From Nymphaea colorata (lineage: Eukaryota; Streptophyta; Magnoliopsida; Nymphaeales; Nymphaeaceae): a DNA stretch of 64,000 nt. The notes under the pieces are model-generated. The model did not search any database. It worked only from the letters and a program-made list of their open reading frames with translations, and had not been told where the DNA came from. The translations under genes were made by a program, and so were the position numbers. Position 1 is the first letter of the stretch. Each line of letters begins with the position of its first letter. The stretch is from positions 7,325,503 through 7,389,502 of the forward strand of contig NC_045143.1 of NCBI RefSeq assembly GCF_008831285.2, in the 5' to 3' direction. Positions 12,132-63,411 of the stretch are shown in pieces.

Positions 12132-13204
12132 TTAAATTGTAGAAAGATGCAAAATGTTGTAAGGATAAACTTCCATTGCGTCCTGGGAGAGAAAGGCCTT
12201 CTCTACTAAGATTCGGTACAGAGCGGTGCTGCAGTGTGCACCATCATAGAACATGTACGCGTCCCTGTTCCCGCACGGTTTGCTCTCTGGTACGCATGCA
12301 ACGCCCGGCGGGAAGTCCGTATTGGTCTCACAACAAGCCTTATTCACCACCTTGAATCCTGTTAATTCATATATATACATCAGTACTTATCAAGAACCAG
12401 ACGATATTATACCAGATGTAGCTTATCTAGCTTCTTATGCAATAAAATGTCTCCAACTACTTGTTCCTGGTCGTCATTGCACAACTGCTTTCACAGCATC
12501 TATTTGATGTATTGATATATGCATGCAACGCTATTGATGCAATGTCCTTGAGAAACTTTCGAAGTTCATCATTCTTAGATGAGCATATTTGTACAAGATG
12601 TGTTTGTAAAACAATCTGGTTTATTCAAAGGGTTAAAGAGTGTCAACTCGTAAAAAAAAAGCCCATTTCAAAATACCAATGTATGGGTTGCTTTCAATTT
12701 CATTTGTAAATCATATCTAAACTATATATATAGTTAAGGGATTTGAAAGTTTTTAAGTTGCATGTTGTGCTTGAAAGCCATGAATTTGGTAAACAAGCTC
12801 ATCATCTGTAAATAACATTCTAGCTTACCCTCAGAACCCGGGTTCTTGTAGATGTTCTCGGTTATGTTGTAGGCATTCACGTAGACAAATTGAGCAGATG
12901 GCATGGTTTCAATCAGTTTGCTTATTGAGGATCTCATAATGCCGCTAAATTTTACAGCTCCATAGTTGAGATCAGCTTTGCATGTGTTGTTATTTTGCTG
13001 CTGAAAGGCAGGGTTGCATCCAAGTGGTTGAACACCGAACAAGACGAACTTTCGAGCTCCCAAATTATACATGCTCTGCGGAAGGCAACACATGCACCAA
13101 GGTAATTGTTTGAACAGAACTGATGTTGATATTTTGTCCTAGAGTAGTGGAACTAAAAAGCAGCACGAAAGAGCCCTTCCGAGTTGCTACAGCATGAATA
13201 TGTG

Positions 13205-13248
13205 GAAGAAGAAGAAGAAGAAGAAGAAGAAGAAGAAGAAGAAGAAGA
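13205..13248. repeat. (GAA)n microsatellite in intron 2 of gene B
   Basis: About 14 gaa units on the plus strand (TTC on the transcribed strand) lie inside the 209-bp second intron. On the sense strand this forms a long pyrimidine tract upstream of the exon 3 acceptor. Confidence 0.95.
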
Positions 13249-13363
13249 TAATGGTAAACACATAGGATAAAGGAGTTTGGGTACCTTAAGTCGCACAGTA
13301 AAGTTCGCCATGAGGTGCTGGAGACTTTCTTCGCATTGTTCCTGGCTATGAGTAGGTTGCTCG

Positions 13364-13712
13364 TGTTAACAAAACTGATAAGGATGAATCCGTTGGAGAG
13401 AAAATCAGCAATCAAGATATGAAGCTGGTAATAAAAGATTGTGATCAAATAAAAAAGGCAGAAAAATCAGAAGAAAGGGAAAGGCGAGAATTTGGGGATC
13501 AAATCAAGATTTCATTTAATCTAGGCAAGAACAACCTTGCCTACAATAAGACGTGATTTCTTCCCTATAAAAGGGACTCGACTCTCCCATTGTAATTATC
13601 TTCTTATTGAATGAAAAATTGTTCGAGTGCCTTCCGATCGTGGACGTAGGCTCAATCAGAGCTGAACCACGTTACTTGCTGTCTTTCATCCTGCTCTCTT
13701 CTTCTGTTTTCA
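13364..13712 (+). repeat. 5' LTR of the copia element in gene B
   Basis: Begins tgttaacaaaactg and ends gttttca, 349 bp. A TATA box (ctataaaag) at 13565-13573 is followed by an attgaatgaaaa stretch that may serve polyadenylation. The downstream segment gatcgtggacgtaggctc recurs in modified form in another LTR fragment at about 37300. Confidence 0.95.
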
Positions 13713-13715
13713 TTA

Positions 13716-13726
13716 TGGTATCAGAG
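13716..13726 (+). other. primer-binding site of the copia element
   Basis: tggtatcagag matches the complement of the 3' end of plant initiator tRNA-Met, the usual primer for plant copia elements. It starts three bases after the LTR's CA end, leaving 'tta' between. Confidence 0.9.
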
Positions 13727-13774
13727 AAATAGAAGTTGCTGCTGCGGAAATCATTTGAGTCTTACCACGACAGC

Positions 13775-13931
13775 ACAACCGCCCTCTTTTGAGAAGAGGC
13801 ATCAATCATACCACGGCAAGCTGTTGCTGTGGAAAGGGCACGACAACCCTCACACAACCGCCCTCCTTTGAAGAGAGGCATCAATCATACCACGACAAGC
13901 TGTTGCTGTGGAAAGGGCACGACAACCCTCT
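13775..13931 (+). repeat. 79-bp tandem duplication in the copia leader
   Basis: Two adjacent units starting acaaccgccctc at 13775 and 13854 share about 95% of their bases, including catcaatcataccacg and ctgttgctgtggaaaggg. They lie in the untranslated leader between the primer site and gag. The leader continues without a long frame to the ATG at 14333. Confidence 0.85.
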
Positions 13932-14332
13932 CTGCTTCCGACTCACCGGAAGCTGCTTAAGACCGTTTGGGTCTTCCACCGGTATCATTGCTCACGGCGT
14001 TTCTGCTGTTTACGGCAGAATCGATCATCTCTTGTTGCTGAAACAAAGGGAGAACAAAGACAGAACAGAGGAAGTTCTCCCTCTCTGTTCACGACAGCTT
14101 TATGGGGTGTTGTTAAAATCACCCCCTCTATCGAGCAAGAGTCAAATCGTTTTCTCAACGTGTGCAGATTCTTCAAGCGCCTTTGCACTTTTTTTCTGAA
14201 GATTCGTGGAAGCAGCGCTTGTAATTTTAAGCGCTGCTGGTTGTGAAACCGGGTCAAAGAAGAGCAGGTCGTTTCTTTCCGCCTCTTTATTTCAGTAAAC
14301 GGCATTTTCTTTACGACTGAAATTGTTCTTAA

Positions 14333-17300
14333 ATGGCGACTTCAACACCTGTTTTCCCTTATCCTTATACTGTCAACGTTGCAAATTTCGTTTCTCTCAA
14401 GCTACGAGCTGAAAATTTTCTCTTATGGAAAACACAAATTTTGGCACTGGTTGAGAGCCAAGATCTTCAAGGGTTTTTGACTGGCGAAGTTACTGCCCCA
14501 CCAGAATTTATTGATGATTCTTCTTCTCAGAAAATTCCCAATCTTCATTTTATTGCTTGGAGGAAGACTGATCGCTTAATCAAGGGATGGATAACCAGTA
14601 CGTTGTCCGAGAGTGCTCTTGGCCTAGTTGTTGGCCTTGAGACATCCAAGGATATTTGGAGGGTTCTTATGAATACCTTCTCTCGTAAATCGCGTGAGAG
14701 AGAATTCCATCTCACGCATTTACTAACTTCGCTTAAGAAGAATGATGATTCTGTGGAAGCCTATATAGGAAAATTCAAACGAATATGCGACGATCTTTCA
14801 GCTATTGGAAAATCTATTGACGAAGGGGCTCAAGTTTACTGGCTACTTCAAGGACTTGGAGAAGGATACGAAGCATTTATTGCATCCATGCTTCGACCAC
14901 CTACTCTTCCTTATGAAGAGGTTGTCTCTCTTCTTCAAAGTTTTGATTCCCGAATAAAGAGTCCCACTCCTCCTATCATGGCCATGACACATCAACAATC
15001 TGGACGTGGTCGCATGCGTGCACGCAGCTATAGAGGACGTGGCCACTATCAAGGGCGAGGACAGTATCAAAATCGACCACATGACAATTCCAATTTCGCT
15101 TCAAATGGTGATGACAAAAATAACAAAAACCCCGTTGTTTGTCAAATTTGTGGTAAGAAATATCATTCTGCAATCAAGTGTTTTGAAAGATTTAATCATG
15201 CCTATCAAGCTGGGGATGCCCAACAAGCACTTGCCGCCATTACTATTGATGATACAAACAACTCAGAATGGTTAGCTGACACTGGAGCATCAGCTCATAT
15301 GACTGGAAATCCTGGTAAGATTTCTGAAATCTCTACTTATGATGGAAGTGATCATGTTATTGTTGGGGATGGTACGCCTCTTTCTATAACTCATATTGGT
15401 AACAGTGAAGTCGTTACAGGCAAATCATCTATTCCTCTTTCTCATGTTCTATATGTTCCAAAACTAAAGAAAGACTTACTTTCTGTTAGTCAATTAACTA
15501 GTGCGTTACCATATGTTTTTGAATTTTCCTCCTCTTGTTGTCTCATAAAGGACAGGAGAACCGGGAAAATAGTGGCACAGGGCAACAAACGTGATGGAGT
15601 TTATACCATCGGCAAGGTCAGACATACAGCATGTTTTTCTTCCAGATTTCGGCGTGCTTCAGAAGAACAATGGCATTTCAGATTAGGACATCCCCATAAT
15701 GGCGTTGTGAGACATTTGCAGCAGAAAAATTTGATTAATGTTTGCTCTTCAGTTCCTAGAACTTCTATTTGTCATAGCTGTCAACTTGGCAAATCATGTA
15801 GGTTGCCATTTCTTGAACGAGAAAATAAATTTGTTGAACCTTTTGAAAAAATCCATTCGGATCTATGGGGACCAGCACCTGTTTGTTCTCATTTTGGTTA
15901 TCGCTACTATGTGATTTTTATTGATGAGCATTCTAGATTCACTTGGCTATATCCTTTGAAGTTAAAATCTGACTTCTTTGTTTGTTTTCAACATTTCCAG
16001 AAATTTGTTGAAACACAATTTAATAAAAGGATAAAGGTTTTTCAATCTGATGAAGGAGGAGAATATACAAGTACAAAATTTAGAGATTATCTAAAGTCTC
16101 TTGGAACAAAACAGTTGTTTTCTTGCCCATATACTAAACAACAAAATGGTATGGCAGAAAGAAAACATCGAAATATCACTGAATTAGGTCTGACCATGAT
16201 GTTGCATGCCAACATTCCCAAGCGTTTCTGGTTTGAAGCTTTTAGCAGTGCTGTTTTTCTCATCAATAGGCTACCATCGTCTTCTCTCAAGATGGATTCT
16301 CCTTACTTAAAACTTTTTGGGAAGCATCCTACGTATGATTTTCTTCGTGTTTTTGGATGTCGATGTTTCCCTTACTTAAGAGATTATGCAAAAGATAAAT
16401 TGGAGCCTCGATCACTGCCATGTGTTTTTCTTGGGTATAGTGATAGTCACAAAGGATATCGTTGTTTGTATCCGGCCACCGGAAAAATGTTTATCTCTCG
16501 ACATGTTTGTTTTGATGAACATTTTTTTCCTTATAAAGATCCTGCTAAATTATATGATGGAGATTCTCTAACTTCAGATCTGATTTCTTTCAATGAGGAA
16601 CAAGAGAATATAGAGCAAATGGTTCCCGAAAATGAGAATCTTATTCGAACAACTGACGTTCATGAGGAAGAACGAAGTGATATTGGCACTCACTCTCAAT
16701 CTCAAGAACATTTGATTGACAACGTGCCAATTAATGAGCAGTCGGTTCACAATTTGCTGGATAGTCTCGGACAGGATGAGTATCAGACAGGCATGACTGA
16801 CACCACGGGACAAAATCAAGTTCAAAGAAATGAAGAAAGCACTGAGATAGACAATGAACAGTCAGTTCACGAGCAGGTTGATAACTCGGAAGAAGGCGAT
16901 CATGGAGTTCTTGATACAAACACAATTGAAAGTATGGAACAAGGTGAGCATACTCCTCCTCCTTCTGCTATGATTAGAACAATGGTCACTAGATCGATGA
17001 TGGGAACCTTTAAACCGAATCCCAAGTATGCTAACTTACATACTTTGTACCAAGATATTCCTAAAGAACCTTCAAGTGTTAATGAAGCTCTTGGGAAACC
17101 AGGCTGGAAAAAGGCTATGGACGAAGAAATTAGAGCCTTAGATGAAAATAAAACCTGGAGACTTGTACCCTATGATCCCAAGATGAATCTAGTTGGCTCA
17201 AAATGGGTGTTTAAAACCAAACTCAAATCAAATGGGACATTGGAAAAACTCAAGGCTAGACTTGTTGCTCGAGGCTTCACCCAAAAAGAGGGAATAGACT

Positions 17301-18799
17301 TCCATGAAACCTTTTCTCCAGTAGTTCGTCCTACCACTATTAGAATGGTTCTTTCTATTGCTACAGTTAGAAAGTGGGAAATCAGACAGTTAGATATCAA
17401 GAATGCCTTCTTACACGGAGCTATAAATGAAGATGTATACATGAAACAACCTCCCGGGTATGAAGATAAAACAAAACCAGGATATGTTTGTAAATTGCAG
17501 CGAGCCATTTATGGTCTGAAACAAGCATCGCGTGCATGGTATGCACGGCTAAGCAGTTTCCTTCTTGATTATGGTTTTTCTACTAGTATGGGCGATCCGT
17601 CTATGTTTACATTACATCGAAGATCAAACACTCTTGTGCTTCTTGTGTATGTTGATGATATGATCCTAACCGGAAATTGTTCTATATTTTTGCAACGCTT
17701 TGTTAATGCCTTTTGCAAGGAGTTTCCTGTCAAAGATCTTGGCAGATTGAGCTATTTTTTAGGAGTCGAAGTGACTTGGACAGAAAAGGGAATTCTCTTA
17801 TGTCAAACCAAGTATGCTAAGGACATTCTTGAAAGAGCAAAGATGGAGGACTGCAAACCAAACATCACGCCAATGAGTCCAAAAATGCCTCAGTATAAGG
17901 ATGATGAAGTAAAATTCACAAATCCTACTCTCTACAGGCAGATAGTTGGATCCTTGCAATACTTGACTCTAACGCGACCTGATATCTCCTTTGCTATCAA
18001 TTATGTTAGTCAGTTTATGCATGAGCCACTTCAGATTCACTATCAAATGGTCAAAAGGATTCTTCGATACATTAAAGGATCAATACACATGGGACTAAAC
18101 ATATTGATGCAAAGCACTCTTGATTTATATGCTTTTTCAGACTCAGATTGGGCAGGATGTTCTCAAACAAGGCGATCCACCACAGGATTTTGTGTTTTTC
18201 TTGGAGCAAATTGTGTGTCTTGGAGTGCCAAGAAGCAAAATAGTGTAGCCAGATCTAGTACCGAAGCTGAATATAGAGCAATGGCGTCGACAGCGGCAGA
18301 ACTTACATGGATACAATTCTTAATGAAGGACATTGGAATACCAATTATCAAAGTCCCAATTTTATATTGTGATAATAAGAGCTCACTTTATATGACGGCA
18401 AATCCGGTATTTCATAACCGAAGCAAGCACATTCAGATTGATTTTCATTATGTTCGAGAAAGAGTAGCTCAAAAGCAACTTCAAACTAAGTATATTTCAA
18501 CCACAAATCAAGTTGCCGATCTGTTTACCAAAAGCTTATCAAAGCGTACTTTCAATCATCTCAAGACCAAACTTAGCCTTCAGCAGCGGCTTAGTTTGAG
18601 GGAGAATGTTAACAAAACTGATAAGGATGAATCCGTTGGAGAGAAAATCAGCAATCAAGATATGAAGCTGGTAATAAAAGATTGTGATCAAATAAAAAAG
18701 GCAGAAAAATCAGAAGAAAGGGAAAGGCGAGAATTTGGGGATCAAATCAAGATTTCATTTAATCTAGGCAAGAACAACCTTGCCTACAATAAGACGTGA
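14333..18799 (+). CDS. Ty1-copia gag-pol polyprotein, intact
   Basis: A single frame of 1488 codons. Gag occupies about residues 1-265. A CCHC zinc knuckle has Cys270, Cys273, His278 and Cys283. The aspartic protease active site DTGASAH starts at Asp316. A pre-integrase zinc-binding segment (HFRLGH ... CHSCQLGK) precedes the integrase core, which begins near HSDLWGP (His508) and contains the FIDEHSRF, SDEGGEY and NGMAERKHRN motifs of the D,D-E triad. Reverse transcriptase covers about 935-1180 with YVDD at 1106-1109. RNase H covers about 1265-1405 (SDSDWAG, TEAEYRAM, CDNKSS). All expected domains and catalytic residues are present. There is no stop before the 3' LTR, so the last 65 or so residues are encoded by LTR sequence, which is unusual. 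The ATG chosen opens the gag signature (NFVSLKL ... FLLWKTQ). Confidence 0.97.
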   Translation: MATSTPVFPYPYTVNVANFVSLKLRAENFLLWKTQILALVESQDLQGFLTGEVTAPPEFIDDSSSQKIPNLHFIAWRKTDRLIKGWITSTLSESALGLVVGLETSKDIWRVLMNTFSRKSREREFHLTHLLTSLKKNDDSVEAYIGKFKRICDDLSAIGKSIDEGAQVYWLLQGLGEGYEAFIASMLRPPTLPYEEVVSLLQSFDSRIKSPTPPIMAMTHQQSGRGRMRARSYRGRGHYQGRGQYQNRPHDNSNFASNGDDKNNKNPVVCQICGKKYHSAIKCFERFNHAYQAGDAQQALAAITIDDTNNSEWLADTGASAHMTGNPGKISEISTYDGSDHVIVGDGTPLSITHIGNSEVVTGKSSIPLSHVLYVPKLKKDLLSVSQLTSALPYVFEFSSSCCLIKDRRTGKIVAQGNKRDGVYTIGKVRHTACFSSRFRRASEEQWHFRLGHPHNGVVRHLQQKNLINVCSSVPRTSICHSCQLGKSCRLPFLERENKFVEPFEKIHSDLWGPAPVCSHFGYRYYVIFIDEHSRFTWLYPLKLKSDFFVCFQHFQKFVETQFNKRIKVFQSDEGGEYTSTKFRDYLKSLGTKQLFSCPYTKQQNGMAERKHRNITELGLTMMLHANIPKRFWFEAFSSAVFLINRLPSSSLKMDSPYLKLFGKHPTYDFLRVFGCRCFPYLRDYAKDKLEPRSLPCVFLGYSDSHKGYRCLYPATGKMFISRHVCFDEHFFPYKDPAKLYDGDSLTSDLISFNEEQENIEQMVPENENLIRTTDVHEEERSDIGTHSQSQEHLIDNVPINEQSVHNLLDSLGQDEYQTGMTDTTGQNQVQRNEESTEIDNEQSVHEQVDNSEEGDHGVLDTNTIESMEQGEHTPPPSAMIRTMVTRSMMGTFKPNPKYANLHTLYQDIPKEPSSVNEALGKPGWKKAMDEEIRALDENKTWRLVPYDPKMNLVGSKWVFKTKLKSNGTLEKLKARLVARGFTQKEGIDFHETFSPVVRPTTIRMVLSIATVRKWEIRQLDIKNAFLHGAINEDVYMKQPPGYEDKTKPGYVCKLQRAIYGLKQASRAWYARLSSFLLDYGFSTSMGDPSMFTLHRRSNTLVLLVYVDDMILTGNCSIFLQRFVNAFCKEFPVKDLGRLSYFLGVEVTWTEKGILLCQTKYAKDILERAKMEDCKPNITPMSPKMPQYKDDEVKFTNPTLYRQIVGSLQYLTLTRPDISFAINYVSQFMHEPLQIHYQMVKRILRYIKGSIHMGLNILMQSTLDLYAFSDSDWAGCSQTRRSTTGFCVFLGANCVSWSAKKQNSVARSSTEAEYRAMASTAAELTWIQFLMKDIGIPIIKVPILYCDNKSSLYMTANPVFHNRSKHIQIDFHYVRERVAQKQLQTKYISTTNQVADLFTKSLSKRTFNHLKTKLSLQQRLSLRENVNKTDKDESVGEKISNQDMKLVIKDCDQIKKAEKSEERERREFGDQIKISFNLGKNNLAYNKT
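18598..18606 (+). other. polypurine tract of the copia element
   Basis: gagggagaa lies immediately before the tgttaac that starts the 3' LTR, the expected site for plus-strand DNA priming. Confidence 0.85.
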
Positions 18800-18955
18800 T
18801 TTCTTCCCTATAAAAGGGACTCGACTCTCCCATTGTAATTATCTTCTTATTGAATGAAAAATTGTTCGAGTGCCTTCCGATCGTGGACGTAGGCTCAATC
18901 AGAGCTGAACCACGTTACTTGCTGTCTTTCATCCTGCTCTCTTCTTCTGTTTTCA
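18607..18955 (+). repeat. 3' LTR of the copia element in gene B
   Basis: Reads the same as 13364-13712 over 349 bp, to the eye without a difference. It encodes the tail of the polyprotein frame up to the stop at 18797-18799. Four bases (ttta) separate its CA end from the target duplication. Confidence 0.95.
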
Positions 18956-19915
18956 TTTAGCTCGCACAACTCATGAACGTCGTTACCCCCCGTGTTGAAT
19001 GCAAATATGCTCTTCGCCAGGTAGGTGGATAGTTCTGTCTCGTTAAATTGTTTCCTCAAATCTGGAAGTGTTGTGTTCTTGAATAACTTTGTTTGGTTTT
19101 TTAGTGATATCGATTTAGACTGCAATAACATCTTACAGTTAGGCGAATCATGGGGCGGCATATCTTGAGGTACCTTGCTTGAATCCAAATACGCAGAGCG
19201 TAAGAAGAGCTCATGAAGTACTCCAACGCTTCTACTATATTATAACAGATTTGCTTGCTTCATGTTCGAATTTCGAAACTCATTTTGCTAATAAAGAAGA
19301 TACTGAAATTCAAATAGAAATGACAATAAGACTGACACTTTCTTGTAAAAATCAGTTTAAGACTGCCATAGTGAGTTCAGCAATGCAAGTCTTGCCATTA
19401 GAAGCTTTTCATTCTCTCTTGAAAAAAACACACCATCATGAAGAAGAAAGAAAGGAATCATAAGAATCATCTGTACCATAAAGCCTAAAAACAGGCTTAC
19501 TTACATTGGGATAATCAAGAATGCCTGAACCACCAGAGGCATAGTTAACTCCAATAGTTATCATCCCACCTACGGCTTTGGGGTCCAAAACAGCCGGAGG
19601 GAGATGGGTAAAGTTCAAAAACACAGCCAAGATATCACCTGGGTTCAGCCCATTGGTGAACCTCCCTGTAGGACCGGTGGGAAAATCTACCCCATATGGA
19701 AGATGGCCGGTAGATGCACCGTGATCGAAAATGACATTGTTACCGCCGTCAACAACGGAGTCTCCGAACACGAACAGCGCAGGGACGCGCTGCTCCTTGT
19801 GTACTACAGAGTATGAAGAAGGAAAAGAGGAAACGAGCAAGAAGAAGAAGACACAGAGACCCATTCTTGCCATTGTTGGGAGACGTGGGTGTGGGAGACG
19901 CATGTTGCAGGCCTA

Positions 19916-23024: not shown

Positions 23025-26010
23025 TCAAACCATGGAGGCCCTATCTGCAAGCTGATTCTGGCTGCTCTGGGTCATGGGCGTCCAACCAGTCGAGCCGGAG
23101 GTGTAGATGGAGCCGGTCACGTCCACGGAGGAGCAATCATAGGTCGAGTCCATGTGCCAAATGAACGGCGGCCGGAATGGCGGCACCGTCGGCGGGTCGA
23201 TGGACCGGGATATGATCTGAATGATGGCCGTAGCTTTGGGTCTATCATTTGGGTTGGGGTGAGAGCAAGCCAGACCCAAGAGCAGGAGGCGGGCCGCATC
23301 TTGCGGGTCGTAATTGTCTCCCAGCTTCTCGTCCACCGCTTCAAGAATTCTTCCTTCCCTGTGCAGGGTCCAGACATAGTCCACGAGGAGGCCGGTGGAC
23401 GACGATCTCGGCCGGCGGCCGCAGACGGTCTCGAGCACGACGGCTCCGAAGCCGAAGACGTCCGACTCCCTCGTTGCTTTGCCGGTGTGGAAGCACTCGG
23501 GGGCGACGTAGCCCATCGTGCCCTGTACGCCGTCGGCCTCCGCGTACGACGTCTTCTCGTCGTCGAGCACCCGGGCGAGGCCGAAGTCGCCGAGGCGGGC
23601 GTTGAACTCCGAGTCGAGCATGATGTTGCTGGCCTTGAGGTCTCGGTGCACCACGCGGTTGTCGTACTCGTTGTGGATGTAGTGAAGCGCGGAGGCGACG
23701 CCGGCGATTATTTTGTACCGTCGGTCCCAGCTCAGTGTTTGCTCGGTCGACTCGAACAGGTGCTGGTCCAGGCTCCCGTTTGGCATGAACTCGTACACGA
23801 TCAGCAGGGTCCCTTTCCTATGGCACCAACCTGAGATTTCAGAAACACGAACAAAGGTTAATGGAATTCACTGTGATTTTTACTGTTTCTAATGGCGCAG
23901 GAGTAACAGCAATAAGGTGTCCAACTGTCCATTAATGACTTGAGTAGTTGAGTTATTACCAAAAGGTGGCTGCGATCAAAGATTTTAAAATATCATAATG
24001 GTCAATCTATGCATGTTGAAGACAGCATATTTGAAAGCAAGAGATTCAGGTTGCGTTTGATTTCTTATAAGGTCTGAGGAGATCTGAAATTAATGACAAC
24101 TGAACATCAAACACTAGCGTGGATCTCAAATCTACCCTACACAATATAAAACAAAGCATGGACTTGAAGTCGAATGGAGAAAGAAGTCAGAGCTTAAAAG
24201 ATCACGGACTTGAGATTCGCTATGATCTTATGTCGTCACCAGTCTCACGTTCATGATAATCGAACACAACCCAATAGTGACCCAATTTAGGAACTACAAT
24301 CTCTTTTAAGAGTCCTCGGTGGAACTTTTTCTCTCTTTTTGTCCTTCTTTTTTGGGTTAGGCGGGCTGTGCCAGTTCATTGAATCACCGAAAGATTGGTT
24401 GCTTTCGAACGAAAAGTCATATCACATGGTCGACTTGGACGTCTTTCTTGGCTTCCATGGCCCCTTTACAGCGGAGTTGGTTAAGTAAATGTGCGGCTTA
24501 TTTAGTTTTCCGGTCAATTGAAAAAAGCGTTCGATGAACAGTTAGTGAGATTCTTTTAGGTGGATTTGTTGTTAGGTGTCGATCGTCCTACAGTAATGTT
24601 ATTAAACATAAGAAAAATTATGTTTCGTAAATTATGTTCTGCAGAAACCCCCAAATTTCTGGTTCTCCTTCTCTGAAGCCGACGCACATTGACTGTAACT
24701 CCTGAATTTTGATGATCGTTGCCATCGTTTCTCGTTTAATGCGAGTCTAATTTCACAAAAAGGAAAGGAAAAAACTGAGAAGGGGCATGAGAATACTGAC
24801 CGACGAGGCGGACGAGGTTCTTGTGGCGCAGACGGTTGATGGTGGTGAGCTCGGCGAGGAAGTCATCCTTCCCCTGCATCGCCTCCCTGGAGAACATCTT
24901 CACCGCGACTTCCGTGCCCTCAAACGGCAGCGCCCCCCTGTAGACCACGCCGAACCCACCTTGGCCCAGCTTCATCTGCTCGTCGAAGTTGTTGGTCGCC
25001 TTCTTCAGCTCGTTGAAGCTGAACTCCCTCGGCATCCCCGGCAAGCTCTTGAGCGCCCCGGTTATGTTGGTGTCGTCCACCGCCTTCCTCCGCCGGAGGA
25101 CGAACCACGCCGCTGCACAAATGGCCGCAGCCACTGCGACCGACGATGGTAATATGATCGCAAACACCATCACCGTCCACCGCATCCCCGGAACCTCCAG
25201 AATATCTACCGTCAGGTTCCATTTCAGTATGCAGTTCAATTCGGCTTCTTTCCCGGTCGATGCCGCGAATCCGAAATACGAATATTGGCTCAAGACGGCG
25301 GCGGTATTGAGGGGGTAAGAGAGGATGCTGCTATTGGGCTTCGTCTCGTTCTCGTTTGCTAAGTAGACGCTCAGCAATCTGGCGGAGGCATCATAGTCGA
25401 TCCAAGCAAGGTACTTCTTGGGGCCAGTTGTCGGGGCGAGGTCGATGCCGATCTTCGAGACCGAGAAGGTAGCGTTGGAACGGACGCTGTTGATGTCGAT
25501 CCCCACGTGGTTGTCATCGGGATCGAAGTCTTGCTTGACGGTGTCGAACTCCACGGCCAGCAGATAGTTGGAAGAGTTGCCGTCGATGGTCGAGTTCGTC
25601 AGGCCGAGGTACTGGCCGTAGCTGTTAGCCGGGATGCCGCTGTCCGGCGCGACGATGAACGCGAGACCTTCGCCGACGCTTTTGTTGTCGGGGCGGTATA
25701 TATTGAACAGAAAGGATGTGCTGAAGGACGCGAGCTTTCCCGACCGCTCGAAGAGCTGGTATCTCTTGTTGTAGATAACCCGGCCGGACTGATTCTGAAG
25801 CGCAAAGCCTTGATTGAGTGAGTCCGGCGTGACCTGGAGGGCTTCCTGCACCGACGCTTTGTTCTGGAAGATGAAGTTCGCCACAGTCGTTTGGTTGAAG
25901 TGTCCGAAAACGAGGTTGTCTTCCTTCTGGCACGAGGACGTCTGGAAAATGGCCACGAGAACGAAAAAAATGGTGGTGGCCGGTAAGGCGGGACGCGCCG
26001 GCGAGCCCAT
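23025..26010 (-). CDS. L-type lectin-domain receptor kinase, one intron
   Basis: A plasma-membrane receptor kinase with an extracellular legume-type lectin domain and an intracellular Ser/Thr kinase; members act in defence and development signalling. Exon 1 is 26010-24801 and exon 2 is 23830-23025, with a 970-bp intron whose junction splits the Gly of LVRLVGWCH. The product is 671 aa, normal for the family. Signal peptide about 1-27; lectin domain about 28-270 (GEGLAFIVAP, LAVEFDTV, DDNHVGIDINSV); transmembrane helix about 278-305 followed by RRRK; kinase with the GQGGFG loop (349-354), Lys371 in VAVK, HRDLKASN, DFGLAR and APE. The lectin loop reads GEG where the family usually has an Asp (GDG), so a metal/sugar-site residue is conservatively changed. 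The exons are strongly GC-rich against AT-rich flanks. It resembles the LecRK-IX group, but I give no symbol. An upstream frame extension to 26109 lacks an ATG. Confidence 0.95.
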
Positions 26011-27408
26011 CACGCCGGCGGGAGTCTGACAAAGGGATGGCGACGAGCGAGGGAGGGAGAGAGTCGGGACGGAGGAGGTTCTGTGTTTGCCCCCAAAGAT
26101 AAAGCACAAGGTGTTGGGTTTAGAAAGAGTAAACGGCCTTTTACAATTAAAAAAATTGGCAGATTCGGCCGCCCAATGTTGACGGCTCTAAAAGTCCTCC
26201 AAAATAAAATAAAGGCAGTCAAAATCATGAACAATCCACTAAACGTTGAATAAACATGTTCCGATAAGGCTAAAAAGGATTTAAAATAAGTAAAAGTTGA
26301 AAGCAATTAGCTGAAGCTGTGAGGACTAAGTGCAACCCACTTAGCTGAAGCTGGGCTTGGTTATGTAAGTCGAGCCCATGCACAGTGAGTCCAAGTCAAG
26401 ATTCCCCAAAGATAGAGAGCCAGGGGGAGACAGGGCTCGTGATAATGTCTGCGAGAGCTCGTGATAATGTAAGAAACGGACACGAATGATGAGGAAATCC
26501 CCGATGCCCTTTTTCATCGCATTGTTGTTGACAAAACGATCACAATCGTGGAAACTGTTCCAAGTTTTTTCGTAATTTTCCCTTGGAGAATTTTGGATAC
26601 ATGAATTTCCTAACATTAGCATCGAAGTTTCGAATCTCGAGTCTAGAACTCGGATTTCAGACCACTTCCGATCTCAGATCCTGAGTAAATTCAATCATAT
26701 CATTTGGGGGCAGTTTGGATGGGGCCAGACTTTTCAGCCCCTTCCACAAAACCACTTGAGAGAGAGAAAGAGCCGATAAAATGAGAATGTATATCAAATT
26801 TTGAAGATAAGAAGTCCCTTAGATACAAAAATTAGGGATAAGAGGTCCCCTAAATACAGTAACAAACCGCAAGACAAAAGCAAAAGAGAAAGAGAGAAAG
26901 AGAGAGGGAGTGATGACAAACTTGCATGCAGATTCACCGAAATCTGGTTTATATCTTGTGGAGACACCAATTGAAAACCAAAAGCATATTATGTGGTTGT
27001 ATGTGTGTTAATTTTCTAGTTTGGTGACATAAGGTGATATGATAAAATATTGTTGGAGATATAGTTTTGATAATGTTGATTAACAGGGCTGAGATAATAA
27101 GTTATTCAATTAGCTATTAAGATGAACTTGTTTCTTCTTTGTCTACCTAATGATGTTTTCTAACAGATGTTTAAATTGAAATGAATGTTTTAGATACAAC
27201 GTGAATAGATATTCCGGGCATTTTGAGTGATTTAAATGCATACTTATCAACACGTATTATATGTTTAATATTGAACAACCACACATGCAAACCCACTAAA
27301 ATGATACTGAAAATGTGTACAAGTCAGTTTTCAGCTTGACATATTGTAAAGGTGTCCAATTTATTAAGATTATAGGTAATGAAATTTATTTTTTAGAATG
27401 CTCTTTTC

Positions 27409-49099: not shown

Positions 49100-49770
49100 T
49101 TAAAAATACTGATAAATGAGTACATTTATATGATGTGTTGGACATGCTAATAAATCTCTCTCCTTAACTGGAAAAGGGTGAAGAAAGTCATTCTTCATTG
49201 AACATGCATGTAGTCAGATTCACATTTTATACAAATTCTTGATGGACGTTACACAATTGTGGATAGATCCAATAATTAAGGGACTGGAGTTAACGCAGGA
49301 TCCGATCACAAACATGTTGCTTTATCTGAGAGATATGACACCAAAATCTATTATGGAAAGCTTATCTTCCACACACAATCTAATGATTCCAACACTCCCC
49401 TTTAAATTGCCACTCCTCCTGGATTGAAGAGAGCCACCTTGCTCCTTAATGCTTGGAACTTTTCTTGCGCTAGTGTCTCTGTGAATATGTCTTGAACTTG
49501 TTAGGGTGAGGGTAGAAACTGAGTTTGAATTTCTTCACTTTGAATTTTGTCTCTAACATTGTACCAGTCAATTTCAATATGGTTGGACTACTCATGGAAT
49601 GTGGAATTGGCCGCTATGTGCATTGTGACTTGTTGTCGCAGAGCAAAGAGATTGGCTGTTTGTGGGATATCCCAAATCATGTAGAAGAGCTTTAAGCCAT
49701 GTCAGTTCACATGTTGCAAGGGCTATAGACCGGTGCTCAGATTCTACCGAGGATTTAGAAATCATAAACA
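49100..49770 (-). mobile_element. Ty1-copia 3' fragment: RNase H tail plus LTR
   Basis: On the minus strand, from 49770 to 49400, RNase H C-terminal signatures appear in two frames (SSVESEHRSIALATCELTWL, then MHIAANSTFHE and a spaced IEIDW). A polypurine tract (aaaggggag) follows, and then an LTR start (tgttggaatc, from 49394 downward). A TATA-like tataaaatg near 49230 fits the LTR. The upstream polyprotein is missing and frameshifts and stops are present. Confidence 0.7.
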
Positions 49771-49779
49771 TCTTATACA

Positions 49780-51414: not shown

Positions 51415-53655
51415 CTTGTCAAAAATCACGAAACCAAAAGTGTTCTCAAGATCCCATGAAAACACCAATTTGAGTAAAACTAGCAACCGGCGAGCTAATG
51501 CATTGTAAGGATCTATATAAGAACGAAAGAGTTATTCCAATGTCTGCCGTGGATGGTCACGTCAAGCCGATGGAGAACATATGACGTATAAAATGTAAAA
51601 CTACTCCATGAAGTTTTGTGTTTGAACAGGATGAAACTGCAACTGTTCTGCAATCAACACGAATGAATTTAATTCCTACATGAACTCTTGCACCTGACTG
51701 ACTACTGAGAATAGTTTCTGCTGTCCTTTACTTCGCACCCATGAAAACTCCTAAATCATGATTTTTATTCCTTTCTTGACGGTGGAGAAGCCCTCAAAGT
51801 ATCAGGGTTTTGGTCAATAAAACTCTTGAAGCCCCTCTATCTACTGGGAAATTACCATGCTTTTACCGAACGACAAGGAAAATCCATACCTTTTGTTTCT
51901 TTTATGAGTTTTGAGCACACGACGTTGCACCTACGTGACATTGACAAGTTAATCCAACTAGAGGAAGAGTAGCGTATTCGAATTCAGTTTTAGTTCGTTG
52001 AAGTAATTTAAGATCATTCAGGAAAACCGCATAGTAAGGAGATTGTGCCAATAAAGTAGGAATGCATAACAAAATATGGACTAAAAGGTGAATAGGAACT
52101 TTTCACTTGCCTGTGTCAATCGTCCAGCAAGTGGGACTACCCATCTAATCTCCTAATGAATATGTCACGAATAAATCTCTATAAAAAAAGGGACCTATCA
52201 GGAACTATGAAATGAAAGAATAGCTTGAGTCACTTCACATTGCTTTTACGAGCCCAGGAACATGCCACGGTTGACCTAATCAACACCACTAAGTTCAAAC
52301 TGAAACCAATTTTTAAAAGGAATGGTCTGAATGTGTATGCAAAGAACTGGATCCCAGTTTTCAGCTCTTGAAAACCATTCATTTCAATGACAAGGTGCAG
52401 GTCATGGATGAGAGTTGAATCATATAAATGAGCCATCATGCAACCAGGTTTCTTAGAAGTAAGGCTAAGTAATTGGTCCTGAATAAGGATCAACATGGGT
52501 ATCATGAAGTGAATCAGGCCCTAAACCTGGTCTCAGTATTAGACACATTGTCCTTGTAGAGCATATTGGGAGGCTTACCCTTGTTTTCCTTTCATTTAGC
52601 ACGACAAGTAAATTGAGTCTGGTCACGTACTCCTTCCAAATCCCTGACCATGGCGGGCATAGCTACCAGCCACAGGGTTTCGCGCTCCCAGGAATGTTAC
52701 ATGTGATTTCCTGTTGCTGAAGAAAAAAACCAAGTAAGCGTAGATAAGTGACCGACACATAGTAGTATAGTTGTCAACAAGCGACTACTATAGCGTCAGA
52801 CACTGATCCACACAGCGAACCTGCCCAGGTAGGTTCAAAATTAAACCTTTTAACGAGCCTATAGTTTGTCCATATTGTCATTAAATGGTGCTTGTATAAA
52901 TTTTCTTTACCAGGATTTCTGGTGGTGGACAAGGCTTGTTGCGTTACAACTTACAAACAGTACAGGTTCCGCAGCAGGGATTGCATGCGTATCAGAGAGC
53001 ACACAATGCGAGAACAAGGATGAATACATGTACTACGATGGTGTACACTACAGCACTGCGGCGTATTTGATCTTAGTGGGGAAGGCCTTTTACTCAGAGC
53101 ATCCCGAAGAAGTGTATCCTTTTAATATTGCACGCCTTGCTACGGAATCTGTTCCCAAAAACAGGGCAATTTTCTAACGTTCCTTTATGATAAGAAAGGC
53201 CTTCTTTACCTTATTGTAAGAATAAGTGTTACCTGTTGCATTGCACTGTGAAGGTCGTTGGTTCATTCCTTGTTTCTATCTAATTAAATATTTGTCGTAT
53301 AGAATGGTTTCTACATCATATGCTTTTCTAGTTGCTAAGGGTTCGTTTATAGTAAGGAATGGCTTCTTCATAACTTTATTGTAAGGATAAGTGAGGCATG
53401 TTGTCTTGCGCAGTGAAGAAACTTGAAACTTTCCTTAGTTTTACCTAAGTACTGTTTGTAAAAGGGATTTGTTTGTACAATGTATTTTCATAGTTTATGA
53501 CAGCCACAGGTGTAAAATATGGGCATGAAGCAACACGCAATTAAAGTTACATCCAAGTGGTTAGTAAGAAGATAAGCAGATGTAGTTGATGTGTTTGTGA
53601 TAGATGCGAAGATATATATATACAAGGTTGAGAACTAACTTTTTGATTTGCAGAC
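51415..53655 (+). pseudogene. truncated duplicate of gene D (D'), exons 1-3 deleted
   Basis: 51415-52050 aligns with the upstream block 38310-39200. From about 52085 the sequence aligns with gene D intron 3, exon 4 and 3' flank (43370-44980). The gene D segment in between, about 4.2 kb with exons 1-3, is absent. The remaining exon 4 starts after ccag at about 52914 with the dinucleotide-phased GA, but carries a 7-bp insertion (cttacaa region, about 52950) that shifts frame before the second half. The downstream frame still encodes a good block V (YYDGVHYST) and ends at 53177. No signal peptide, nucleophile Ser or oxyanion blocks remain, so it cannot make an enzyme. Confidence 0.9.
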
Positions 53656-58167: not shown

Positions 58168-58700
58168 GAGAGTCATCACCGACTCTTGAGATGAGTCGAG
58201 AAGACTCATGAGGCTTTGAGCCTCTCTTTTAAAGTCGGTGGATTAAGGCGGTGCTTAATGAGTAAAGAAAAAATTTAAAAAAATGGAAAACGGTGGAAGC
58301 TTCATCCACCGACCTCCTCTTCCTATAAATAGGGATGATTGGCCATTTTGAGGGTATGTAGAAAATCAAGTTGAGTGCTTTTGGTTGTGAGTTGAGTGTG
58401 CTCCATTTGTGAGCTGGTGAGTGCTCGTGTGTTCACTTCGTGAACTCGAGTGTCGAAGCTTCAAGTGTGTGCTGCAAGGGTATTGGGGTTTTAGCTCACT
58501 GCGTGGGCCAAAGTGAGTTTTTTTCTGAGTTCTCTTTTGTAAATCCAGTTTCATGAATAAATAATTGACATTTTAAAGTATACTCTGCCAAAGTTATTAT
58601 TGAGAATTATTCTGGACGTCGAGACTCTGCTGAATTTTTTTCGCATAAATTCGAGTTTGTAGCTGAGTTATATTTAGGGCCCGCATTACGTTTCCCAACA
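58168..58700 (+). repeat. 5' LTR of the copia element in gene E
   Basis: Aligns with 62885-63411 with about a dozen substitutions and a few A/T-run indels. A TATA-like tataaatag lies at about 58325. The terminal TGAA is missing at the left end. Confidence 0.9.
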
Positions 58701-58701
58701 A

Positions 58702-58714
58702 TTGGTATCAGAGC
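58702..58714 (+). other. primer-binding site of the copia element in gene E
   Basis: ttggtatcagagc, complementary to plant initiator tRNA-Met, starts two bases after the 5' LTR. Confidence 0.9.
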
Positions 58715-58775
58715 GGGGTTCTGTTTAAGGGCCGATTTACTAGTGAGATTAATTGGGCAATTATATTCTGAAATT

Positions 58776-61700
58776 ATGGCGGCATTAGCGGTTGCATTAA
58801 ATAATATTGAGAAGCTTAACAATAGCAATTATGGCTATTGGAAATCTTGTATGGAGTCGTATTTTCTTGGACAGAAATTATGGGAGATAGTATTGGGATC
58901 AGACACTAATATTCCTGTCGACGAGGAACCGAAGAAGAAATAGATGATCAAAGCAGGAAAAGCTTTATTTGCAATTAAGGTTTCAATTGAGAAGGCTTTA
59001 TTAGAGCATATACGAGAAGCTACGACTCCTAAAGAAGCATGGGATGCTTTTGCAACGTTATTTTCTCGAGCTAATGACGCCCGCCTACAATTGTTAGAAA
59101 ATGAATTAGCTACATTAACTCAGGGAAACATGTCGATAGCAGAGTATTTTATGAAAGTTAAAAATATCTGTAGAGAAATTTCTCAAATTGATCATGAGTC
59201 TAAAATTAGTGAGGCCCATATGTAGAGAATTCTTAGTCGCGGACTTCGTCCAGAATTTGGCAGTTTTATAATTGGTGTTCAAGGCTGGCCAGTTCAACCA
59301 ACTTTGTTGGAGTTAGAAAATCTCTTGATCAATCAAGAAACATTAGCGAAGCAAATGGCCGGGTTTTCTCTCAAGGGAAATAATGAGGAAGCTTTGTTTA
59401 GTAAGGGTTAGAGATCACGATGGCCAGCTAAGCCAGTCATTAGGTCTCCAAGTAGGAATACTGATGAAAAGAAAGAGAAAAATGTAGAAAAGAAAACAAA
59501 AGAAACTACACAACAATGGAGACCAAAGAATAAGTGTTTTAGATGTGGAAGACTGGGTCATTTTGCTCGTGACTGCAGAGTCAGAATAAATGAAGGAAAT
59601 ACAGTCACGACAAGTAAGCAATATGGGGGAGCTAACGAGACTGTACAGAAAAATTCATTTCTGTACTCAATGGAGGTTAAAGAGAATATTATGCAAGAAA
59701 GATGTAATTCCGCCCATAAAAAACCAGTAAAAGAAAAAGAAGAGAAGATCAATTATCAAACTGATTGGATAATTGATTCTGGATGTTCAAACCATATGAC
59801 TGGTGATGAAGGCAAGTTCATAAGTATGAAAGAATATGACGGAAATAGAGTTGTTGTTACTGTTAACAACACAAAGCTCCCAGTGAAACATATTGGAGAA
59901 GCAGAGGTTGTAGCCAACTTTGGCAAAGACCAGATTTTACGGAACGTTTATCATGTTCCAGGAATGACTAAGAATCTGTTGTCTGTGCCACAACTTACAT
60001 TTTTAGGGCACTATGTTGTGTTTGGCCCAAATGATGTTCAAGGAACTCCCATGTTTGAAGGAAGGAAAGTTGAGTCAATATATGTCTTGTCTGCAGAAAC
60101 AACATATACTGACAAAACAAAAAAACATAGCACTGCAGATATCTGGCATGAGAGACTCGCTCATGTTGGATACAACAAACTTCGGGAGATGTCTAATAAG
60201 GGGCAGTTGATTGGCCTGCCCAAGCTTGAGGTACGAACTGACAAAGTATGCCCAGGATCTCAGTACGGAAAGGCGCACAGGCAGCCATACAAAGAATCAA
60301 AATATAGAGCTAAAGCGCCATTCGAGCTTGTGCATTCAGACGTATTCGGCAAAGTACCAGACCCATCGGTTGGAGGTAAATGATATTTTATCACATTTAT
60401 TGATAATTTTTCAAGATATACCTGGGTCTATTTCATAAAAGAAAAGTCCGAAGCACTTGAAAATTTTAAGGAGTTTCACCAAATTGTACAAAAAGAACTT
60501 GGGCATAGAATTCGGTGTCTACGAACCGATAATGATGGCGAATATACATCTAATATGTTTATGGCATACACGAGGCAACATGGTATTTAAAGGCAATTCA
60601 CATGTGCCTATACGCCACAGCAAAATGGAGTGGCAGAAAGGAAAAATCGCCACATAGCAGAAACATGTCGAAGTATGATGCATGCAAAGAACATGCCACC
60701 AAGATTTTGGGCCGAGTGTGTCAGCACCGCTGTACACGTAATTAATCGACTACCAATGTCAAGGTTTAATTTCAAGTCTTCATATGAAATGCTTTATAAA
60801 AAGTAGCCATCTGTGAGCTATTTTAGAGTATCTGGTTGTGTATGTTATGTCTTTATATTTGAACAACACAAGACTAAGTTCGACAAAAAGGCACAGAGAT
60901 GTGTCTTTGTCGGATATGATCCATATCGGAAGGGATGGCGATGTGCTAATCCTAGCACAGGGCAAGTTCATGTTTCTCGCGACGTCATCTTCGATGAAGC
61001 ACTATCGTGGGGGTCAGAAGAAAAGAAAGCGCTTCCAGACTCTCTAGTTTTTGAGAAAGATGTTCGAAACAAAATACAATTCGAGATGAATCAAGGCGAA
61101 CATGAGTCGAAAGTTCTAGAAGCAAGACGACCTGATAAACAGGTCCAAATGTCTAAACATAGTTCAAGACGAGAAGGACGAGCAGATCCATGGAGAACAG
61201 GAGTAAGTCCTGTCCAACAAAGAAGTACAGAAGAAGAAAGACCATCACAACTTGAAGAGGCAGAAGAAGCACCAATAGCACTAAGAAGATCAACGAGAAT
61301 ACCAAAACCAAATCCCAAGTATGCAGATGCAGATTGTACCATCATGGAGGAGATCGAGCCAGCTTCTTTTCAAGAAGCAAAAGATGTTGAAAAATGGCAA
61401 GCAGCAATGAAAGATGAAATGAAGGCGCTGGAGCATAACGAGACTTGGGAACTCGTACCAAAGCCTGCAGGAGTAAAGCCTATTACTTGTAAGTGGGTTT
61501 ACAAAATTAAAAGAAATGCAGATGGCTCAGTTGAGAGATATAAGGCTCGACTAGTCACGAGAGGATTTTCACAGCAGTACTGCATTGACTTTGAAGAAAC
61601 TTTTAGTCCTGTTGCGAAGATCACATCCGTACGCATTCTGATGGCCATTGCTACAAGCAAATCTTGAAAGCTATGGCAAATGGATGTGAAAAATGCTTTC

Positions 61701-62857
61701 TTATATGGAGATCTCGATCAAGAAATCTATATGGAGCAGCCTGAAGGATTCAAATCTCCAAACAAGCCAGACTACGTCTGCAAGTTAAGAAAAGCACTCT
61801 ATGGACTGAAGCAAGCACCCAGAGCATGGTACGGAAAATAGCTGAATTTTTAGTATTTAGTGGATTTCAAGTCTCTTCAGCATATTCAAGTCTCTTTGTC
61901 AAGGCAAGAGGTACGAAACTTACTATTTTGTTAATTTATGTTGATGACTTAATTATTACTGGAGATGACAATGAATAAATTAATCTCATTCGTGAACATC
62001 TCACAGTGAGATTTGAAATGAAAGAGCTGGGGGAGTTGCGACATTTCCTTGGATTGAAAATTGATTACGAAGCTCAAAGATTATTTTTAAGTCAAAAGAA
62101 GTATGCTCATGACTTACTACGTAAGTATGGTATGCTCAGTTGCAAACCTATCTCAACACCAATTGATATAAATGCAAAGCTTAGAATTGATGAAGGAGAC
62201 AAGCTAGAAAACATTACTATGTATTGACAACTGGTTGGAAGTCTAATCTACTTAACATTGTCAAGACCAGATATTGCATATGCAGTTGGTGTTGTAAGCA
62301 GGTTCATGCAAACTCCAAGGAAGCCACATTTAGAAGCATTAAAAAGAAAACGAACTCTTGACTTTGGTATACTTGATGAAAAATGGCCAACTTGTCAAGT
62401 TGTTGGATATTGTGATGCGGATTATGTTGGAGACTTATCAACTCGAAGATCAACCACTGGATATACGTTTAGTCTTGGAAGTGGTGCAGTTTCATGGTGC
62501 AGTAAGAGGCAGCCGACAGTTTCACTGTCTACAACAGAAGCAGAATATAGAGCAGCATCTCAAGCCGCACAAGAATGTGTATGGTTGATATGACTACTAA
62601 AAGACATCAAACAAAATGTAGATTATGCAGTGAGAATTTACTACGACAATCAGAGTGCAATTAGACTGGCAGAAAATCCTGTCTTCCATGCCCGGACGAA
62701 ACATATAGAGGTAGAGCATCATTTTATTAGAGAAAAAGTACTCAAAGGAGATATTCAGTTGCAGCCAGTCGGTTCAGCAGATCAAGTTGCTGACATATTT
62801 ACCAAAGGCTTGCCAGATATTCACCAAGTTTCGAAGAATGTTGAGAGTCATAAGTAA
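58776..62857 (+). pseudogene. decayed Ty1-copia gag-pol
   Basis: From the ATG at 58776 the copia domains are recognisable in order: gag (NYGYWKSCMESYF), zinc knuckle CFRCGRLGHFARDC (about 59530-59570), protease DSGCSNHMTG (about 59775), pre-integrase (WHERLAHVGYNKL), integrase (HSDVFG at about 60335; a downstream core segment is frameshifted), RT ([22 protein letters not shown] at about 61937) and RNase H ([22 protein letters not shown]). In-frame stops occur near 58940, 59222, 59409, 60380, 60804, 61665, 61976, 62224 and 62591, and at least one frameshift lies near 60520-60660. It cannot make a full polyprotein. Confidence 0.9.
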
Positions 62858-62869
62858 AGAGTCGGTAAT

Positions 62870-62880
62870 GAGGGGGAGAT
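62870..62880 (+). other. polypurine tract of the copia element in gene E
   Basis: gagggggaga(t) directly precedes the tgaagag that begins the 3' LTR. Confidence 0.8.
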
Positions 62881-63411
62881 TGAAGAGAGTCATCACCGAC
62901 TCTTGAAATGAGTCGAGAAGACTCATGAGGCTTTGAGCCTCTCTTTTAAAGTCGGTGGATTAAGGCGGTGCTTAATGAGTAAAGAAAAAAAAAATGGAAA
63001 ACTGTGGAAGCTTCATCCACCGACCTCCTCTTCCTGTAAATAGGGATGATTGGCCATTTTGAGGGTATGTAGAAAATCAAGTTGAGTGCTTTTGGTTGTG
63101 AGTTGGGTGTGCTCCATTTGTGAGCTGGTGAGTGCTCGTGTGTTCACTTCGTGAACTCGAGTGTCGAAGCTTCAAGTGTGTGCGGCAAGGGTATTGGGGT
63201 TTTAGCTCACTGCATGGGCCGAGATGAGTTTTTTTCTAAGTTCTCTTTTGTAAATCCAGTTTCATGAATAAATAATTGACATTTTAAAGTATACTCTGCC
63301 AAAGTTATTATTGAGAATTATTCTGGACGTCGAGACTCTGCTGAATTTTTTCCGCATAAATTCGAGTTTGTAGCTGAGTTATATTTAGGGCCCGCATTAC
63401 GTTTCCCAACA
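62881..63411 (+). repeat. 3' LTR of the copia element in gene E
   Basis: 531 bp from tgaagagagtcatc to gtttcccaaca, complete with TG and CA ends. It abuts the esterase exon at 63412. Confidence 0.93.

Follow-up and report, generated by a model that had tools for sequence, protein, structure and literature searches.

The 64-kb stretch of the Nymphaea colorata genome analyzed here (C6:7325503–7389502, 38% GC; hereafter the window) harbors a GDSL esterase gene that is split by a long terminal repeat (LTR) retrotransposon. The gene lies on the minus strand at 12132–19873, with its ATG at 19873 and its TAA at 12134–12132, and the element is placed in its coding exon 2 between two copies of the target-site duplication (TSD) GCTCG. 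When the element and one copy of GCTCG were removed, the exons joined to 358 codons followed by TAA, with GT-AG borders at 3/3 introns. The joined product matched PF00657 over residues 33–336 (E = 5.8e-26; 92.4 bits against a cut-off of 23.6). Ser39, Gly115, Asn169, Asp322, and His325, the catalytic and block residues of the family, were all kept, each in its block. Among solved structures, a single sequence relative was found, lysophospholipase A (8a24; E = 9.6e-5). Judged by these features, the joined gene encodes a member of the GDSL (SGNH) esterase family, with esterase activity predicted. The likeness to the plant GDSL/SGNH esterase-lipase family (PF00657) lies in the profile match, the conserved catalytic blocks, and the tandem cluster, whereas the window gene differs in being broken by the insertion. 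The first-pass annotation, made from the letters of the window, had described a full four-exon esterase gene of 358 codons with all catalytic residues and a single copia insertion in exon 2, and both descriptions were borne out.

The element is a member of the Ty1/copia group, as shown by integrase preceding reverse transcriptase, by its LTR pair, and by the target duplication of 5 bp. Its polyprotein is open throughout, as had been proposed, and Pfam analysis on 300-aa pieces identified gag, Pol_BBD, gag_pre-integrs, rve, SH3_retrovirus, and RVT_2, with gag at 14333–15232, rve at 15233–16132, and RVT_2 at 17033–17932, i.e., integrase before reverse transcriptase. The piece at 17933–18796, where RNase H is expected, gave no Pfam match; its residues 1–202 align at 42% to a second copia element of the window, described below. 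Two motifs are presumably the priming sites: TGGTATCAGAG, which directly follows the 5′ LTR and would be the primer-binding site, and GAGGGAGAA, which precedes the 3′ LTR. The coordinates of the features are given in Table 1.

Table 1. Features of the split esterase gene, the inserted element, and the paralogues used for comparison (positions in the window).
Feature	Position	Strand	Remark
GDSL esterase exon 1	19505–19873	−	start codon, hydrophobic N-terminus, GDS block with Ser39, Gly115
GDSL esterase exon 2, first part	18960–19119	−	GGND block, Asn169
GDSL esterase exon 2, second part	13285–13358	−	
GDSL esterase exon 3	12829–13075	−	
GDSL esterase exon 4	12132–12358	−	Asp322/His325 block, stop TAA
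Target-site duplication GCTCG, copy 1	13359–13363		
Ty1/copia LTR retrotransposon, 5,596 bp	13364–18959	+ (antisense to gene)	within coding exon 2
5′ LTR, 352 bp, TG...TA ends	13364–13715	+	TGGTATCAGAG directly after
Open polyprotein, 1,488 aa	14333–18799	+	gag/integrase/reverse transcriptase; stop inside 3′ LTR
3′ LTR (353 bp), with an additional T close to its end	18607–18959	+	GAGGGAGAA before it
Target-site duplication GCTCG, copy 2	18960–18964		
Intact paralogue G3, 374 aa	30886–33103	−	comparison gene
Intact paralogue G4, 369 aa	39848–44499	+	comparison gene

Further copies of the element were searched for in one genome assembly (407.8 Mb, 783 contigs). The LTR search gave at least 41 matches (40 scored of 68 candidates), 12 of which, from seven insertion sites, reached ≥92% identity. 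When a segment of the reverse transcriptase region served as the query, at least 42 matches were obtained (40 scored of 250 candidates), in which the same four full-length copies stood at ≥98% and the next match at 90%, setting aside a short fragment beside one full-length copy. The four full-length close copies (5.5–5.7 kb) are the window copy, C11:14.57 (TSD GCGGC), C3:27.33 (AGAAC), and C11:13.88 (CTCTT). A fifth copy, C11:3.198, is 3,087 bp long with both LTRs and the TSD TGGTT, and C4:21.34 and C12:12.39 are represented by one LTR each. The untranslated leader of the window element contains two tandem 78-bp repeats (13774–13930) that are 95% identical and are both also present in the copy at C11:14.57.

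The LTRs of the window element had been read as identical. This holds for substitutions, of which there are 0 over 351 bp, and fails by one base in length, the 3′ LTR ending in CATTTA and its own 5′ LTR in CATTA. The ending CATTA is also found at five LTR ends of three close copies (both LTRs of C11:14.57 and C11:3.198 and the 3′ LTR of C3:27.33), while the 5′ LTR of C3:27.33 is shortened there and C11:13.88 ends in CTTTA. Because the LTR ends of the other close copies mostly read CATTA, the extra T seems particular to the 3′ LTR of the window copy. At its 5′ LTR end (C3:27330142), the C3:27.33 copy is without the last bases that the other close copies have before the primer-binding-like site.

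The age of the insertion was estimated with assumed rates of 1.3e-8, 6.5e-9, and 2.2e-9 substitutions per site per year, none of which comes from this plant. With 0/351 substitutions between the LTRs, the 95% upper bound is 0.33, 0.66, and 1.94 million years (My), respectively. The sister copy at C11:14569570–14575157 differs from the window element by 3 internal substitutions and by two gaps (7 nt and 1 nt) at 14196–14206, ahead of the polyprotein; their LTRs differ by one substitution, besides an LTR indel of the sister's own. The distinguishing LTR base is present in both window LTRs, and the other base is found in both LTRs of C11:14.57, both of the C3 copy, and the 5′ LTR of C11:3.198. 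As both window LTRs share this base, the sister probably does not descend from the window copy, and the insertion should postdate their split. The sister-based point estimate is 0.029–0.059 My, with an upper bound of 0.067–0.135 My at the two faster rates and 0.40 My at the slow rate; copying errors during transposition would render these ages too old. With no LTR substitution and a near-identical sister copy, the insertion is judged to be very young, in agreement with the earlier proposal.

The preferred account is that a Ty1/copia element integrated antisense into coding exon 2 of a clustered GDSL esterase gene, duplicating GCTCG, and that a transcript entering the element would then meet a stop 21 codons past the junction. 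The predicted product is a 197-aa stub with 176 native residues and without the Asp/His block, and owing to this loss, the filled allele is most likely null, so that the silencing put forward in the first-pass annotation is predicted. Skipping of exon 2 (234 nt) would by arithmetic keep the frame and lose Asn169. We hold this account of structure, integration, and likely null status, taken as a whole, with high confidence. No empty allele was found in the assembly, where the exon 1–2 DNA matches itself at full identity and the next DNA match is 73%; among the matches listed by the protein search, no paralogous exon exceeded 65%. Since the next matches are only this similar, the assembly appears to be without an empty allele or a close duplicate of the gene. 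The site may be polymorphic between individuals, as the first-pass annotation had proposed; this one assembly contains a single copy of the gene, the one carrying the element.

The state of the gene before the insertion was evaluated against the intact paralogues G3 and G4, which have the same four-exon layout and share 53.5% and 58.2% identity with it, respectively. The joined protein aligns without a gap to G3 at the insertion point and with a one-residue gap to G4. Relative-rate counts showed no acceleration of the split gene relative to the intact paralogues, with 31 unique changes against 35 for G4 (outgroup G3; chi2 = 0.24) and 31 against 51 for G3 (outgroup G4). No other disabling change, which the first-pass annotation had named as a finding that would speak against its claim, was found in exons 1–4. 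Given the unaccelerated rate and the intact exons and introns, the coding exons and introns judged give no indication that the gene was decaying when the element arrived. The ratio of nonsynonymous to synonymous substitution (dN/dS) was 0.24 against G3 and 0.21 against G4 by NG86, and 0.25 and 0.23 by YN00, with a paralogue dS of ∼1.4, near saturation, that makes these ratios rough. This roughness, a C-terminus 12 residues shorter than that of G3 and 6 shorter than that of G4, and the splicing evidence of the next paragraph weigh against the picture of a functional gene turned null by the element. The comparisons nevertheless suggest that the gene was under constraint until recently. If it had instead been a relic already, with the element landing in neutral sequence, it would have company in the cluster, where only the 3′ part of one gene was found at 51.8–53.5 kb and the gene from 57.2 kb is split by copia; the open exons, canonical introns, retained catalytic residues, and lack of acceleration relative to the intact paralogues argue otherwise, and this explanation was rejected as improbable.

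A near full-length esterase would still be made if cryptic sites, either within exon 2 or at the ends of the LTRs, allowed the element to be spliced out. A plain consensus match, run without a control, found ten in-frame, stop-free GT-AG pairs around the junction that would excise the element; 7/10 keep the GGND block, and the least lossy of these costs six residues, with a donor fitting 4/9 consensus positions. Removal of an exonic copia insertion by splicing is described in PMC12112155, where exonic insertions are nevertheless said to have mostly given transposable element–gene transcripts. The cryptic donors of the window fit at most 6/9 consensus positions, and at most 5/9 in the pairs retaining more of exon 2, and the acceptor tracts contain at most 56% pyrimidine. 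Hence, such intronization is considered unlikely, and the null reading is preferred. Misplacement of the element into this locus during assembly was also considered, as the near-identical C11 copy is the type of repeat able to mislead assemblers. The 5-bp duplication, however, is the local sequence GCTCG, unlike the GCGGC of the C11 copy, and a substitution in both window LTRs is absent from that copy; an artefact was therefore rejected as very improbable.

To characterize the insertion sites of the family, the flanks of the five two-LTR copies were joined, and at each site reading frames run across the junction. The joined flanks of C11:14.57 gave a 470-aa aspartyl protease, with TAXi_N (2.6e-46) across the junction, TAXi_C (3.7e-33), and Asp (1.3e-24). 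C11:13.88 gave MYB (1.3e-14) on one flank, with the junction 15 residues after the match, and C3:27.33 gave a BURP-like match across the junction (2.9e-5) that at 24.2 bits is under the cut-off of 27. No Pfam match was found for the joined frame of C11:3.198 or for the 161-aa exon-2 frame across the junction of the window site, whose exon status comes from the whole gene model. The length of the frame across the junction was tried as a sign of coding and proved too weak, the five sites scoring 0.03–0.11 against 2,000 random window positions; the exon reading therefore rests on Pfam and on the reading of the flanks.

Apparent coding exons thus hold 4/4 full-length copies, 4/5 two-LTR copies, and 4/7 sites. 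If a coding fraction of 10% is assumed, the chance is 5e-4 for 4/5 and 3e-3 for 4/7. As the window copy was chosen for its exon location, the count is weakened when it is left out, to 3/3 full-length copies, 3/4 two-LTR copies, and 3/6 sites (chance 1e-3, 4e-3, and 0.016 at 10%, and 0.047 for 3/6 at 15%). The contrast set comprised 14 single outer flanks (12 diverged copies with C4 and C12), six of 20 loci being omitted for near-duplicates or unclear borders. Of 10/14 flanks run through Pfam, two gave matches under the cut-off and none was convincing; the contrast is weak, as only the longest border-touching frame was judged and coding in another frame or past an intron would escape. It is tentatively suggested that this low-copy family has recently been active as an exon-seeking mutagen, with intact young copies in coding exons and diverged copies in non-coding DNA, which might reflect exon-guided integration, later purging, and null alleles that segregate.

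A second copia element, of another family, lies at ∼58168–63411 and interrupts the neighboring GDSL gene (from 57.2 kb) in its exon 3. Its LTRs are ∼98% identical, with 11 substitutions/527 and a 6-nt gap (K = 0.021), giving an age of 0.8–1.6 My at the two faster rates; it is older than the exon-2 insertion. It has broken reading frames and shows no target duplication. The search with its LTR gave at least 48 matches (40 scored of 241 candidates). Of three two-LTR copies examined, two (C11:4.50 and C6:6.97) have flanks whose frames suggest non-coding DNA, and C8:4.43 (TSD GCCAG) lies in what we read as a frame-broken glycosyltransferase gene. Elsewhere in the window, a decayed relic fragment on the minus strand (49429–49774) resembles the 3′ part of a copia polyprotein.

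The split gene belongs to a large cluster. The esterase model gave at least 121 exon-level matches in its own genome (114 scored of 281 candidates), and by hand count ∼85 of the exon matches listed lie on C6 at 7.07–7.53 Mb; a second group among the matches listed lies on C1 around 28.03–28.13 Mb. Three GDSL genes in C6:7157000–7197100 (at ∼7.158, 7.166, and 7.196 Mb) have identical exon-1 scores and look like recent tandem copies. Within the window, 51819–53535 is a partial duplicate of the GDSL region at 38.9–44.8 kb, of which the coding part found is the 3′ part only. A legume-lectin receptor kinase gene, with lectin and kinase domains by Pfam, is present on the minus strand at 23025–26109. 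Together with the spliced GDSL genes and the copia elements, it gives the window the character expected of plant DNA.

Copia insertions in genes have been described in other plants. According to PMC6668482, Arabidopsis ATCOPIA93 markedly prefers exons, and copia integration is guided by H2A.Z in environmentally responsive genes. The window case resembles the ATCOPIA93 and ATCOPIA78/ONSEN insertions (PMC6668482, PMC12112155) in that copia elements insert in genes; it differs in element family and plant and is described here at the sequence level. The close copies in apparent coding exons and the copia-split neighboring gene fit with the published copia preference for exons and H2A.Z (PMC6668482). 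The exonic landing in the esterase gene may reflect a bias, shared by plant copia elements in general, toward the exons of genes that are non-essential and respond to the environment. In cucumber csgl3 (PMC4696102), CsGL3 is disabled by a copia-type insertion of 5,005 bp whose LTRs are identical. The two cases are alike in an autonomous-looking ∼5 kb copia element in a gene, in identical or near-identical LTRs, in a short target duplication, and in loss of function, which for the window gene is predicted. For csgl3, however, the phenotype and lines with and without the insertion are known, and CsGL3 is an HD-ZIP factor gene, unlike the GDSL esterase gene described here. No description of the GDSL exon-2 insertion was found in titles and abstract openings, most subscription papers lying outside the search. 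By analogy with these cases, the GDSL exon insertion is an ordinary, known kind of mutation. What is new is that every full-length close copy found so far occupies an apparent coding exon and that a second copia-broken gene is present in one cluster, two points that the first-pass annotation had not covered.

The split gene offers a clean, datable natural knockout, of predicted null status, in a large esterase cluster, and the exon pattern of the family provides a second plant setting in which to test the preference for exons reported for copia elements. If empty alleles segregate, functional and null haplotypes could be compared directly at this locus. If the exon-seeking reading is true, the family would be a natural insertional mutagen of the species.

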